Source: Pseudomonas sp. GM78
GTDB taxonomy: Bacteria > Pseudomonadota > Gammaproteobacteria > Pseudomonadales > Pseudomonadaceae
Assembly: GCF_000282475.1 (NCBI RefSeq)
Contig: NZ_AKJF01000097.1
Coordinates: 1-64,000 of the forward strand
Length of the DNA stretch: 64,000 nt
Reading direction: 5' to 3'
Shown here: positions 18,136 to 24,037 of the stretch, in pieces
Layout: each line of letters opens with the position of its first letter
How positions within the stretch are numbered: position 1 is the stretch's first letter
Translations under genes and position numbers: made by a program
The notes under the pieces: generated by a model
Told to the model about the DNA's origin: nothing
Databases searched by the model: none
What the model saw: only the letters and a program-made list of their open reading frames with translations

Positions 18136-18441
18136 TCAACGATACGCCGTCGAAATCCCCTGGCGCTCCTCAATGCATTCTGGTGCCCCCATCTCGAATT
18201 CCCGGCAGATCAGCGGGCGTTTTTCGTAGATGGTGCACATCATCGTGTTGCGATCCAGCGCGGCGCACCAGCCGTCGTCCAAGCGCAGCATGACCTCTCC
18301 CCCCCAGTCATCGGTGTCGATGAATCGCTCGGGCACGCCGGTGTCGGTGATCAACATGACTTCGAGCTGGCAGCAGCAGGCTGCACAGGTCGAGCAGGTC
18401 ACGGCCGCTGTGGCGATTTGCGTGTGGGGGATGGTTTTCAT
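18136..18441 (-). CDS. YkgJ-family cysteine-cluster protein
   Basis: 101 residues containing nine cysteines, including CSTCAACCC (16-24), a WCAALD segment (Cys59), MCTIYEKRPLICREF (Cys69 and Cys79) and Cys88. This spacing is that of the YkgJ/UPF0153 family, thought to bind zinc or an iron-sulphur cluster; its function is unknown. It lies 85 bases downstream of the photolyase-operon SDR gene on the same strand and could be a read-through partner, but nothing proves that. Confidence 0.85.
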   Translation of the reverse strand: MKTIPHTQIATAAVTCSTCAACCCQLEVMLITDTGVPERFIDTDDWGGEVMLRLDDGWCAALDRNTMMCTIYEKRPLICREFEMGAPECIEERQGISTAYR

Positions 18442-18526: not shown

Positions 18527-19309
18527 TCACAACCGATCCATGATCGGCGGGCTGCTGCGAACCATGCGTTTGCCAATCGCCAACTTCGTCCGGTCGGGTA
18601 TTTTCGGCAGCGGCCACAGGGCGGACATGAACATCCCAGGCAACGCGATCTCAAGTGGTCGGTTCCTGATTTCGTGGAAGATGTGCTGCGCTGCTTTCCC
18701 CGCCGGCCAGATGAGTGGCATGGGTAAATCGTTTTTCGAGGTTCGTGGTGTCTCGACGGCCCCGGGATTAACTACTGTGACTTCGATCCCTTCCGGTGCC
18801 AAGTCAATGCGCAGGGATTCGAACAGGTAACGCATGCCGGCTTTCGAGCCGCCGTAGGCTTCGGCGCGGGGCAGTGGCAGGTAGGTCACCGAACTGGCCA
18901 GCCCCACCAGGTGCGGCGCTGTGCCGGAGCGCAGCAATGGCAGCGCCGCTTCGATGCAGTAGCTGCTGGCGAGCAGGTTGGTGCGCACCACATGCTCGAT
19001 GATAGAGGCGTCGAACTGCTTGGCATCCACGTATTCGCAGGTACCGGCGTTGAGGATCACGGTGTCCAGGGAGCCCCAGTCCCGAGCAATCTGTTCGCCG
19101 ATTTCACGGACCGTCTGGCTGTTGGTCAAGTCGCCAGCCACCACCAATACTTGCCCGGGATAGCGCAGCGACAAGACTTTCAGCGGGGCCAGCGAGCGGG
19201 CGCTAACGGCCAGATGGGCGCCGCTCTTGAGTATTTCTTCGGCCAGCGCGGCGCCAATACCGTTGCTTGCACCGGTCAACCAGTATCGTCGTGGAGGTGT
19301 CAGCCTCAT
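18527..19309 (-). CDS. short-chain dehydrogenase/reductase, last gene of the photolyase operon
   Basis: 260 residues. The Rossmann motif TGASNGIG (13-20), NAG at the fourth strand, and the catalytic Ser with the YGGSK motif (Tyr-x-x-x-Lys) mark a classical NAD(P)-dependent SDR. The substrate is not known. The start codon overlaps the stop of a 27-codon ORF (ATGA), and AAGGAG lies inside that ORF, so it is translated as part of the phrB transcript. The C-terminal basic tail is longer than the core fold needs. Confidence 0.88.
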   Translation of the reverse strand: MRLTPPRRYWLTGASNGIGAALAEEILKSGAHLAVSARSLAPLKVLSLRYPGQVLVVAGDLTNSQTVREIGEQIARDWGSLDTVILNAGTCEYVDAKQFDASIIEHVVRTNLLASSYCIEAALPLLRSGTAPHLVGLASSVTYLPLPRAEAYGGSKAGMRYLFESLRIDLAPEGIEVTVVNPGAVETPRTSKNDLPMPLIWPAGKAAQHIFHEIRNRPLEIALPGMFMSALWPLPKIPDRTKLAIGKRMVRSSPPIMDRL

Positions 19310-19389
19310 CCCGTTCTCCTTTGCAACCAGGCAGTCGCCCGGCCGAATACCATCAGATGTTTATAAAGACGCAGCAAAAAGTTATTCAT
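19306..19389 (-). CDS. 27-residue small ORF coupled to phrB and the SDR gene
   Basis: ATG at 19389 lies inside the last codons of phrB (eight-base overlap) with GGGAG five bases upstream, and its TGA overlaps the SDR start as ATGA. The peptide begins MNNFLLRLYKHLMVFGRAT and ends WLQRRTG. It is hydrophobic and basic, as expected for a short membrane-associated helix. I do not recognise a family. It may be a real microprotein or a coupling leader that carries ribosomes to the SDR Shine-Dalgarno site. Confidence 0.5.
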   Translation of the reverse strand: MNNFLLRLYKHLMVFGRATAWLQRRTG

Positions 19390-20827
19390 AAAGGCTCCCG
19401 GCAGCTTGCCGTGACGGCAGGTTCTTGAACGCGGCCAAGGCGCGGGCACGGGAGGTGCTCAGGTCGACGATCGGTGGCGGATAATCTGGCACACCGAACA
19501 AACCGCCAAGTTGCGCCGGGTTATGCACAGCTTTTTTATCGAGCCCCGACAGTTGCGGGAGCCAGTGCTTGATGAACAGGCCTTCGGCGTCGAATTTTTC
19601 CGACTGGCTCAGCGGGTTGAAAATCCGGAAGTAAGGCGCCGAGTCGGTGCCGGTAGACGAGCTCCACTGCCAGCCGCCGTTGTTCGCTGCCAGGTCGCCA
19701 TCGATCAGGTGGCGCATGAAGAAGCGTTCGCCCTCGCGCCAGTCGATCAACAGGTTCTTGGTCAGGAACATCGCCACCACCATGCGCAGGCGATTGTGCA
19801 TCCAGCCGGTTTCCAGCAGTTGGCGCATGGCCGCGTCGATGATCGGCAAGCCGGTACGGCCCTGCTGCCAGGCGGCAAGTTCTTCGGGGGCGTTGCGCCA
19901 CGCCAGGGCTTCGGTTTCCGGGCGAAAGGCGCGGTGACGGGAAACCCGCGGGTAGCCCACCAGAATGTGTTTGTAGAACTCGCGCCACAACAGTTCATTG
20001 ATCCAGGTGACGGCGCCGACCTTGCCACTTTCGATCTCGCCCTGATTGCTTTGCATCGCGGCGTGCAGGCACTGGCGGGGAGAGATCACCCCGGCTGCCA
20101 GATAGGCCGAGAGTTGGCTGGTGCCGGGTTTTGCCGGGAAGTCGCGCTCGCTCTGGTAGTAGTCGATTTGCATCTCGGTAAAGCTGTCGAGGCGGCGCCG
20201 GGCTTCGTCTTCACCGGCCGGCCATAGCTCACGCAGGCTGTCAGGGGGCGGGTCGAAACCTTCGACCCGCGTCGCGATGGCGTCGCTGGCAATGTTCAGC
20301 GCAGCTTGCGCCGCCGGGGTTCGTACCAGGCCGGGCAGCGAATGATGCAGCCGTTCATGACAGACTTTGCGGAACTGACTGAAGACCTGAAAGTAACTGC
20401 CGGTTTTAGTCAGCACACTGCCGGGTTTAAACAATAGTTGATCGAGGTAGCGGCGGACCTCGATGCCTTCGGCCTCCAGAGTCTGGGCTACCGCTGCATC
20501 GCGACGGGTTTCGTGGATGCCGTATTCCTCGTTGAAATGAACCGCGTCGATCTGCAATTGCCGGCATAGCTCGAGCAACACGTTGGGGGCGTCATCCCAA
20601 CGGGGGGCATTGCGGATTAGCAGGGGAATGTTCAATTGGCCCAACGCACCACTCAGTACCTGCAGGTTGCGCAGCCAGAAGTCCACTTTGCAGGGGGCGT
20701 CGTCATGTTCGCGCCATTGCTCCGGGCTCAGCAGATACACCGCCACCGTAGGGCCGCACGCCGCCGCGGCCGAAAGGGCGGTGTTGTCGTGCACGCGCAG
20801 GTCGCTGCGCAGCCAGATCAATTGCAT
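19382..20827 (-). CDS. phrB: deoxyribodipyrimidine photo-lyase (CPD photolyase)
   Basis: 481 residues from the ATG at 20827, which gives the normal photolyase N-terminus MQLIWLRSDLR; an in-frame ATG at 20848 would add seven residues and neither has a strong ribosome site. The N-terminal MTHF-antenna domain and C-terminal FAD domain are both present: TSQLSAYLAAGVISPRQC, WINELLWREFYKH, GRTGLPIIDAAMRQLLETGWMHNR and SSTGTDSAPYFRIFNP are class I photolyase signatures. It repairs cyclobutane dimers with blue/UVA light. It follows the merR gene closely and overlaps the small ORF. Confidence 0.96.
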   Translation of the reverse strand: MQLIWLRSDLRVHDNTALSAAAACGPTVAVYLLSPEQWREHDDAPCKVDFWLRNLQVLSGALGQLNIPLLIRNAPRWDDAPNVLLELCRQLQIDAVHFNEEYGIHETRRDAAVAQTLEAEGIEVRRYLDQLLFKPGSVLTKTGSYFQVFSQFRKVCHERLHHSLPGLVRTPAAQAALNIASDAIATRVEGFDPPPDSLRELWPAGEDEARRRLDSFTEMQIDYYQSERDFPAKPGTSQLSAYLAAGVISPRQCLHAAMQSNQGEIESGKVGAVTWINELLWREFYKHILVGYPRVSRHRAFRPETEALAWRNAPEELAAWQQGRTGLPIIDAAMRQLLETGWMHNRLRMVVAMFLTKNLLIDWREGERFFMRHLIDGDLAANNGGWQWSSSTGTDSAPYFRIFNPLSQSEKFDAEGLFIKHWLPQLSGLDKKAVHNPAQLGGLFGVPDYPPPIVDLSTSRARALAAFKNLPSRQAAGSLYE

Positions 20828-20861
20828 GTGGGTGTTCGCCCGATTCATTGCACAAGTGCCT

Positions 20862-21803
20862 TTAAATGAGTCCGCATTGAACGAGTGCCTGGTGCGCGGC
20901 CAAGGGGTTTTCAGCCAGGTACAGATCAGCGATCTCTGAAGTTATTGCGGACAATTCGGTGTTGTGAATGCACACCGTTGGGCCGGCGATCATTTTTGGG
21001 CAACTGGCGCCGTTTAAAAGTTTCACCAGTTGTGAAAGGTTTATCGCTTTGCTGGAATACAGCAGTACGCCGCGTGGTTGCAGCAGGTCGACAGCCAGTG
21101 CCAGTTCACTGGCTGGCAGCGGCCAGTCAAACACTTGCACCGGGCAATCGGCGCTGCTGATCAACCAGGCCGTGAGCCACACGTGGGGTTCAAGGGGCAG
21201 GTCCGAGTGGTTGATCAACAGCAGCGGTGCGCCGTGTAACTGGCGGTTGTTATGGTAGAGGCGCGCACCAAACTTGCTTCGCAGCCAGGAGTAGAAAAAT
21301 CCCCGTTCCATCTGCGTGCCGAACTGCCCTTGCCAGCGTTGTTCCAGCTCCGCCAGCAGGGGCATAAGTAACTGCTCGCACAGGGTGCGCGGCGGGTACA
21401 GCGCCATGGCCTGGTTGATGGTGTCGTCGAGGGTGCGTTCAGTCAGCTGCGTGACGGCGGTGAACAAGGTATGGCGCAACACTTGCCAATCGTTTTCAAC
21501 AAAACCGCTGAAGGCCTGCGGCGTGTCGAGCAATTGCTTGACCTGGCTGACGGCCACGCCGCGGTTGATCCAGGTGAGGATCGCCAGGATGCGTTGGACA
21601 TGCTCGGCCGAGAACAGCCGGTGTCCCTTGGGCGTGCGCTGCGGCACGATCAGGCCATAGCGACGTTCCCAGGCTCGCAGAGTCACCGCGTTCACCCCGG
21701 TCTGCCGGGCAACTTCGCGGATCGGCAGCCAGCCTTCATCCAGGGCTTTCTTGAAGTCGGCACCAAAGTCTTCGCTGGCGCTGCTGTCGAGTAGGGGTTT
21801 CAT
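20862..21803 (-). CDS. MerR-family regulator, LitR/CarH-like (class without evident B12 site)
   Basis: 313 residues. The N-terminal winged helix holds IREVARQTGVNAVTLRAWERRYGLI..RTPKGHRLF (about 27-65), identical in style to CarH/LitR DNA-binding domains. A helical bundle and a Rossmann-like C-terminal domain follow, as in the B12-dependent photoreceptors, but I do not see the cobalamin-binding DxHxxG signature. From memory, P. putida has such class II LitR proteins (PplR), which take the light signal from a separate LOV protein. It overlaps the RudS stop by one base and precedes phrB; TGTACA boxes flank the operon promoter, so autoregulation is likely. Confidence 0.88.
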   Translation of the reverse strand: MKPLLDSSASEDFGADFKKALDEGWLPIREVARQTGVNAVTLRAWERRYGLIVPQRTPKGHRLFSAEHVQRILAILTWINRGVAVSQVKQLLDTPQAFSGFVENDWQVLRHTLFTAVTQLTERTLDDTINQAMALYPPRTLCEQLLMPLLAELEQRWQGQFGTQMERGFFYSWLRSKFGARLYHNNRQLHGAPLLLINHSDLPLEPHVWLTAWLISSADCPVQVFDWPLPASELALAVDLLQPRGVLLYSSKAINLSQLVKLLNGASCPKMIAGPTVCIHNTELSAITSEIADLYLAENPLAAHQALVQCGLI

Positions 21804-22762
21804 CAGATGGCGTTTCGCAGGCTGAGATTTTCCGGATGGGGTTGCAGGTACGCCTGCTGATCGATGTACGGGTCCGGATGTTGACGAAAGTGATGCTTGA
21901 GCAAAGTCAACGGCACCACCAGCGGCACGATGCCCTGGCGGTATTGACCAATGAGGTGTTGCACTTCCTGCTTGTCCTCAGCGCTGATGGCCTTTTTCAG
22001 ATAGCCGCTCAGGTGCTGCAACACATTGGTGTGGGTGCGGCGGGTCGCGCATTGCTTCAGGGCTGCCATCAGCAGGCTGAAGTAGCGTGGCCCAAGTTCT
22101 TTCGGATCGGTCTGGCCCATGTTGCCCAGCAAGTTGCCGAGGATTTTGTATTGCACCGGGTTATGGGCCATCAGCAGGTATTTGTAGCGCGAGTGAAACG
22201 TTGTCAGGCCGCGGCGACTCAGGCCTTCGTGCAACAACTGTTGCCAGGCGCTGTAGGCGAATACGCGGGTGAGAAAGTTTTCGCGCAGCACCGGGTCGTT
22301 GAGCCGGCCGTCTTCTTCCACCGGCAGGTCCGTTTGCTGGGCACAAAACGCCTGGGCGTAGATGCCCCGGCCACCGCCCCTCACCGGTGCGCCATTGGCG
22401 TGATAGATCTTGACCCGCTCCAGGCCGCAGGAAGGGGATTGCTGCATGAAAATGTAACCGCAGATATCTTCAAGCTCCGCCGCCATCTGCCGACCATAGC
22501 TGGCCAGCGGCCGGGTGACATTGATGTCGCGGTCGACCGTGCCGACGGCCTCGGGTGCATCCGCATCCCCCACCAGCCGGATGGGCTGGCGCGGAATGCC
22601 CAGGCCAATGGCGACTTCGGGGCAGATCGGGACGAACTCGAAGTAGTCGCTGAGAACCTGACTGCACAGTCGCGATGCCTTGTGCCCGCCGTTGTAGCGC
22701 ACGTCAAAACCCATCAGGCAGGCGCTGATGGCGATTTTCGGCTTGGCGGGGGGCAGGGACAT
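21803..22762 (-). CDS. rudS: DUF523-DUF1722 protein, tRNA 4-thiouridine desulfidase (RudS-like)
   Basis: 319 residues. Residues 1-150 are DUF523, the thiouracil-desulfurase (TudS) domain, with the three iron-sulphur cysteines visible: SACLMG (Cys15), PICPEV (Cys47) and SPSCGLE (Cys112). Residues 160-319 are DUF1722 (YbgA-like; FHSRYKYLLMAHN). From memory, the P. putida fusion of these domains is RudS, which removes sulphur from 4-thiouridine in tRNA and is raised by UVA; 4-thiouridine is the near-UV chromophore of tRNA. It is the first gene of the photolyase operon, behind a TGTACA-box promoter. Confidence 0.88.
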   Translation of the reverse strand: MSLPPAKPKIAISACLMGFDVRYNGGHKASRLCSQVLSDYFEFVPICPEVAIGLGIPRQPIRLVGDADAPEAVGTVDRDINVTRPLASYGRQMAAELEDICGYIFMQQSPSCGLERVKIYHANGAPVRGGGRGIYAQAFCAQQTDLPVEEDGRLNDPVLRENFLTRVFAYSAWQQLLHEGLSRRGLTTFHSRYKYLLMAHNPVQYKILGNLLGNMGQTDPKELGPRYFSLLMAALKQCATRRTHTNVLQHLSGYLKKAISAEDKQEVQHLIGQYRQGIVPLVVPLTLLKHHFRQHPDPYIDQQAYLQPHPENLSLRNAI

Positions 22763-22860
22763 CGAGCACCTCGGAATCTATACCTGTACAGAGCTGAAAG
22801 TCTGTACAACATAGGCTCATCATAGATTCAAAGATGTACAAGTCAAATTAGTTGTATAAG
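22763..22860 (-). promoter_or_regulatory. rudS-merR-phrB promoter with four LitR-type TGTACA boxes
   Basis: On the minus strand a -35 TTGACT (22841-22846) and -10 TATGAT (22819-22824) are 16 bases apart. TGTACA occurs at 22785-22790, 22803-22808 and 22835-22840, and TGTATA at 22853-22858. The members of each pair start 18 bases apart. TGTACA is the known operator core of CarH/LitR regulators. One box lies between -35 and -10, so bound repressor would block polymerase. Confidence 0.75.

Positions 22861-22975: not shown

Positions 22976-24037
<1,062 letters not shown>

Follow-up and report, generated by a model that had tools for sequence, protein, structure and literature searches.

CarH and the class I LitR proteins, which use vitamin B12, share a MerR-type DNA-binding domain, an operator with a TGTACA-like core and repression in the dark, and the motifs DxHxxG and W-x9-EH are those of the B12-binding proteins of the CarH type. 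The closest described system is promoter P6650 of Pseudomonas mendocina, for which light induction, binding of the LitR-type protein PmlR2 to both of its sites and relief by the illuminated protein PmSB-LOV are reported (PMC9758184). In that account the footprint of PmlR2 forms one continuous stretch from -45 to +32 on the sense strand and from -54 to +37 on the antisense strand; gel shifts gave a stable PmlR2/LOV/DNA complex in the light, contrary to the BIAcore measurements, and the authors favour the latter (PMC9758184). The operator consensus T(G/A)TACA-N12-TGTA(C/T)A was set with PplR1 of P. putida (cited in PMC9758184), and Maruyama et al. point out a TGTACA-N12-GGTATA sequence at folM of P. 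mendocina (PMC9758184). In P. putida the genes rudS (PP_0741), pplR1 (PP_0740) and a photolyase (PP_0739) adjoin (PMC11417400, PMC11014904), RudS removes s4U from tRNA (PMC11417400) and PP_0738-PP_0742 are described as rising together in co-culture (PMC11014904). The class of regulators to which LitR1 of the present study belongs is described as B12-dependent in the RudS paper (PMC11417400); for P. putida it is stated that B12 is not required (PMC9758184).

The stretch of DNA analysed here (the window) comprises 64,000 nucleotides of Pseudomonas sp. GM78 (contig NZ_AKJF01000097.1) and contains a further instance of this published promoter type. Its TGTACA-type boxes are very probably two operators of class II LitR repressors at a light-switched rudS-litR1-phrB promoter, from which LitR would be released by a short LOV protein. 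The boxes, the promoter, their conservation, the MerR class of the regulator and the genes for LitR2 and the short LOV protein can be read from the sequence of this strain. The feature is real but largely explained, and the additions beyond the published work are modest: the symmetry of the downstream site, boxes in one genome with no detectable LitR1 and five genomes with neither a recognisable short LOV protein nor LitR2.

Promoter and operators

TGTACA boxes were identified at 22785-22790, 22803-22808 and 22835-22840 and a TGTATA box at 22853-22858, with starts 18 apart within each pair. The promoter is on the minus strand, with a -35 hexamer TTGACT (22846-22841) and a -10 hexamer TATGAT (22824-22819) separated by a spacer of 16. 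The original prediction had all of these elements correct: the box coordinates, the 18-base spacing and the TTGACT-N16-TATGAT promoter. In the orientation of the genes the order is TATACA, an N12 containing TTGACT, TGTACA, TATGAT, TGTACA-N12-TGTACA and the ATG of rudS. Operator site 1 (TATACA-N12-TGTACA in this orientation, 22835-22858, minus strand) straddles the -35 hexamer, its box columns are conserved and its position is that of Site 1 of P6650. Operator site 2 (TGTACA-N12-TGTACA, 22785-22808, minus strand) is located downstream of the predicted start site and upstream of the rudS ATG, as is Site 2 of P6650. Both 24-bp operators match the published consensus. Assuming the spacing of P6650, with the start site 48 nt upstream of the ATG (22762), transcription is predicted to start at 22810; site 1 would then extend from about -48 to -25 and site 2 from about +2 to +25, so that the operators would cover the -35 and the stretch from start site to ATG of a sigma70-type promoter. 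The two pairs had been described as lying on both sides of the promoter. Two pairs there are, but they do not simply flank it, since the -35 is within the N12 of 22835-22858 and 22785-22808 lies past the -10. In a classical MerR activator promoter the operator is found within a long spacer of 19-20 bp; this arrangement was rejected here, since the spacer is 16 bp and the sites cover the -35 and a stretch beyond the -10.

The pattern TGTAYA-N12-TGTAYA was matched three times in the window, with one of the two places concerned matching on either strand; 100 shuffles gave a mean of 0.00. In the genome (7.29 Mb) TRTACA-N12-TGTAYA is limited to four places, of which two belong to the present promoter. 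A third (C17:122175) precedes by 61 bp the SnoaL-like ORF at the head of a ufaM-type operon, and the consensus match at C200:23632, which falls within the ORF of an OprD-type porin, was put down to chance. Looser patterns were less informative: the lone hexamer TGTACA was found 19 times in the whole window with 5.4 expected from shuffles, and TGTACA-N12-TGTACA with two mismatches showed little excess (228 places vs 182 in the control). The window-wide excess of TGTACA lies mostly outside the promoters of rudS and of the FAD-dependent gene described below.

The operon and other candidate targets

The first gene of the operon, rudS (21803-22762, minus strand), encodes a 2-thiouracil desulfurase (TudS) domain fused to DUF1722. 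It is followed on the same strand by litR1 (20862-21803), encoding a class II LitR-type MerR regulator with MerR and B12-binding_2 domains and corresponding by gene order to PplR1 (PP_0740) of P. putida (PMC11014904), and by phrB (19382-20848), a DNA photolyase gene. A short-chain dehydrogenase gene (18527-19309, minus strand) is a probable further member, judging from order and strand. Downstream of the latter, a small cysteine-rich ORF (18136-18441), presumably similar to YkgJ-type proteins, is possibly the last gene of the operon.

The next gene upstream of the promoter, FAD-dependent and amine-oxidase-like (22976-23962, minus strand), is a probable second target and is taken here to correspond to PP_0742 of P. 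putida. The original prediction did not list two TGTACA boxes upstream of this gene, at 23983 and at 24010, the second with a GGTATA partner at N12. On the minus strand, 24010-24033 reads TATACC-N12-TGTACA, a form that 55 of the 56 loci compared below have and whose reverse complement is that proposed for folM in PMC9758184. It is graded only as a probable further LitR-type site because its conservation (0.99) is hardly above that of its flanks (0.94). The extra box (23983-23988, minus strand) is between this site and the FAD gene, and two TGTACA were identified upstream of the FAD gene in 53/56 loci. The ufaM-type operon at C17, named by resemblance, is separate from the present one; it comprises SnoaL-like, SDR, amine oxidase, DUF1365 and CMAS-type genes and carries a single exact site. 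The TATACC-N12-TGTACA variant was also seen beside it, at C17:128397-128420 (L158:1898-1921), just upstream of a minus-strand ORF (L158 1310-1882).

Regulators and light sensor of the strain

LitR1 matched MerR_1, MerR and B12-binding_2, with no match to PF02310 at E 0.001; at the same threshold LitR2 matched MerR only and likewise lacked PF02310. Neither DxHxxG nor W-x9-EH was identified in LitR1 or LitR2. By its domain matches LitR1 is of the class II kind, having MerR and B12-binding_2 and no PF02310 domain. A CarH or class I photoreceptor sensing B12, implied when the boxes were originally compared with CarH operators, was rejected because the B12-binding domain is lacking.

The gene for LitR2 is found at C5:56699-57655, beside folM- and folE-like genes, and that for a short LOV protein of 154 aa, with a PAS_9 domain and a DCRFLQ motif, at C5:58345-58806. 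The best matches of the latter protein are solved short PAS/LOV-type chains, the first being 7yx0 (E 7.6e-74). A single ORF separates the two genes (C5:56699-58806, L039), which are beside the folM-/folE-like genes as in P. mendocina. By eye, no TGTACA or folM-type site was seen between LitR2 and the fol genes. The first LOV pattern used, GxNCRFLQ, misses the DCRFLQ form and gave 0 matches in this genome and 61/298 in the genus. A wider pattern identified the short LOV gene at C5 and one other place, at C74; that match, in a ParA-like ORF but not in its reading frame, was attributed to chance.

Conservation and co-occurrence in Pseudomonas

The exact four-box arrangement was identified in 178 of 298 Pseudomonas genomes and its reversed control in none (0/298). 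Only the exact form was scored, and LitR1 is present in 111 of the 120 genomes without it. In an alignment of the window's promoter with 55 others the mean column identity was 0.976 for the 24 box columns and 0.967 for the 12 columns of the -35 and -10, compared with 0.706 for the other 82 columns. Conservation of the boxes in related Pseudomonas, which the original prediction had proposed to examine by alignment, is thus borne out. These 56 loci were found with peptide patterns taken from the window's own LitR1 and therefore comprise close relatives only. Four degenerate boxes are kept in 48 of the 55 scorable loci (L121, incomplete, was left out) and the remaining seven retain one pair. The -35 is TTGACT in 54/56 promoters, identical to that of P6650, while the -10 is TATGCT in 38, TATGAT (also that of P6650) in 17 and TAAGAT in one. 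Thirty four-box loci, a non-random draw from the 178 genomes, were fetched: 25 precede rudS-litR1, four a snoaL/ufaM-type operon and one phrB. A distance of 49-52 bp separates the starts of the two sites in 89 distinct promoters. These were obtained from 116 stretches once duplicates had been removed; each was required to have all four boxes in degenerate form, 22-32 bases between the sites and a TTGA within the N12 of site 1.

LitR1 was identified in 288/298 genomes (E 1e-60), LitR2 in 262 (E 1e-60) and the short LOV protein in 262 (E 1e-35). The last two occur together in 259 genomes and are both absent in 33, with only one or the other in three genomes each. Absences were read as gaps among the genomes with matches, and the list sizes agree with the tallies of 36, 36, 10, 120 and 61. 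The association between four boxes and presence of the short LOV is moderate (p = 0.028, a value made generous by relatedness). The canonical motif GxNCRFLQ is commoner in genomes without the short LOV (19/36) than in those with it (42/262), which may represent replacement.

At E 1e-35 a short LOV match is lacking from 15 of the 178 genomes with the four boxes; nine of these 15 carry the canonical LOV motif somewhere. In the other six a laxer LOV search gave only PAS-like matches of 28-33 % identity, and the wider motif pattern had no match in G127, G189, G190 and G235 and single matches in G259 (DCSFLQ) and G223 (DCRFFQ) which are not the LOV motif. G223 is 73 % complete and has LitR2. The remaining five (G127, G189, G190, G235 and G259, the last one included because its match reads DCSFLQ) are near-complete genomes in which four boxes and LitR1 are found but neither LitR2 nor a short LOV could be recognised; they may still encode a LOV protein whose motif is atypical. 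The fetched four-box locus is that of the snoaL-type operon in G127, G190 and G259 and that of rudS-litR1 in G189. A different case is G079 (L017), where the four boxes are directly before phrB, and rudS and litR1 are missing from the operon. This genome gave no LitR1 match at E 1e-60 and contains LitR2 and the short LOV. Since the boxes are kept there, the operator does not seem to depend on the operon's own regulator, as observed in this one genome.

Symmetry of the downstream site

In 75 distinct site 2 sequences the positions of the N12 are complementary to each other beyond shuffles: N1-N12 in 61 (52.4 in shuffles), N2-N11 in 59 (45.1), N3-N10 in 42 (20.0) and N5-N8 in 32 (21.3). Exceptions are N4-N9, at chance level (22 vs 20.4), and N6-N7, below it (8 vs 19.9). 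Among axes 9 to 17 the symmetric one was the best, with a mean z of 2.73 and the next at 1.15; the shuffles ignore relatedness, for which the off-axis pairings serve as a control. Because of this complementarity and of the axis standing out, site 2 is best seen, at the level of sequence, as an inverted repeat with compensatory changes and with arms longer than the hexamer. No comparable signal was identified in 28 sequences of site 1, where the -35 fixes part of the middle. In the main text of the paper on P. mendocina (PMC9758184) the words palindrome, inverted repeat and dyad are absent.

Discussion

By analogy with the published systems, the same light switch probably operates in this strain, with one or both of its LitR proteins as the presumable binder. 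In the dark, LitR1, LitR2 or both would occupy the two operators, the first covering the -35 and the second lying immediately downstream of the start site, and would shut RNA polymerase out of the rudS-litR1-phrB promoter. Under blue light the short LOV protein of this genome would bind LitR and take it off the DNA, and upon this release RudS (removing s4U from tRNA), LitR1 and the photolyase would be made. The original prediction of a LitR-type operator with two sites agrees with the consensus match found here and with LitR binding at the homologous P. mendocina promoter, and release by light fits the relief of repression there by a blue-light-activated LOV protein (PMC9758184). Its proposal of looping was not sustained: direct occlusion of RNA polymerase is enough, because the published footprint on P6650 is continuous and the site starts are only 49-52 bp apart in the 89 promoters; cooperative binding may or may not be involved. 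For this strain the likely promoter, repressors and light sensor can now be named, and photolyase and tRNA s4U removal would be tied to one blue-light switch.

Autoregulation by the MerR protein of the operon had also been proposed, but this protein need not be the only binder; that LitR1 acts alone is not supported, in view of the footprinting of PmlR2 and of G079. The strict form of this proposal, in which LitR1 alone binds, the two sites are joined by a loop or cooperative contacts and LitR1 itself senses light, is quite improbable. The position of litR1 inside its operon would suit it, as would the five four-box genomes with LitR1 and no recognisable short LOV or LitR2, and PplR1, the counterpart of LitR1 by gene order, is the protein with which the published consensus was set (PMC9758184, PMC11014904). 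Against it, LitR1 has no B12-binding domain or motif, PmlR2 and not PmlR1 was the protein footprinted on P6650, in one continuous stretch (PMC9758184), G079 retains the boxes before phrB with no LitR1 match, and LitR2 and the short LOV are both present in the genome of the window. That the boxes are chance TGTACA words, or the sites of another regulator, has almost no probability left, even with the excess of the hexamer across the window (19 vs 5.4), mostly away from the rudS promoter: the shuffle mean of the spaced pair is 0.00, the boxes are conserved across the genus with an empty reversed control, and binding was mapped at the homologous P. mendocina promoter (PMC9758184).

The symmetry of site 2 could also have been kept for a role in RNA, as a leader hairpin controlling rudS translation or mRNA stability. 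The site belongs to the predicted leader, where it folds into a hairpin (-13.0 kcal/mol for the window leader, mean -9.6 over 75 sites), and its arms covary. This reading is nevertheless very improbable, given no clear excess of wobble pairs (among non-Watson-Crick pairs at N1-N3, 20 of G-U type and 14 of A-C type; at N1-N4, 27 and 31), no Rfam match, the same hexamers in site 1, which is outside the transcript, and the report that PmlR2 does not bind DNA with a mutated Site 2 (PMC9758184). With two LitR operators retained as the preferred reading, a broader proposal can be made tentatively, being possible but on balance unlikely: that different light sensors control the two-operator LitR promoter within Pseudomonas, and that the unit of the operator extends beyond two hexamers at N12 to an inverted repeat whose arms measure about 8-9 bp. 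A minority of species has LitR1 and neither LitR2 nor a recognisable short LOV, and on this reading another sensor, or LitR1 itself, must therefore release the promoter. This half of the proposal concerns the relatives, as the known pair of LitR2 and short LOV is present in the genome of the window. The conserved two-site promoter thereby leads to a short list of genomes seemingly without a short LOV partner, useful for the identity of the light sensor.

In comparison with the known systems, CarH and the class I LitR proteins have in common with the present case the MerR-type DNA-binding domain and the TGTACA-like operator core; LitR1 and LitR2 differ in having no B12-binding domain or motif, and the box spacing here is 18 bp. 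Closer is P. mendocina, as described in PMC9758184. Shared with its P6650 are TTGACT-N16-TATGAT and two sites, one over the -35 and the other between start site and ATG; also shared are an operon with a LitR paralogue and phrB, and LitR2 and a short LOV elsewhere beside fol genes. One box here is TGTATA, whereas the P6650 sites are TGTACA-N12-TGTACA. Nine genes, ufaM among them, are regarded as one operon in P. mendocina, whereas here the ufaM-type genes stand apart as an operon that has a single exact site to itself. No counterpart of the folM site of P. mendocina was visible by eye in the interval from LitR2 to the fol genes here. P. putida is reported to have three PplR and two short LOV proteins (PMC9758184, PMC11417400, PMC11014904), compared with the two LitR and one short LOV found in this strain; the PplR1 operon of P. 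putida KT2440 shares with the present one the operator consensus and the succession of rudS, the LitR-type gene (pplR1) and the photolyase gene in a row.
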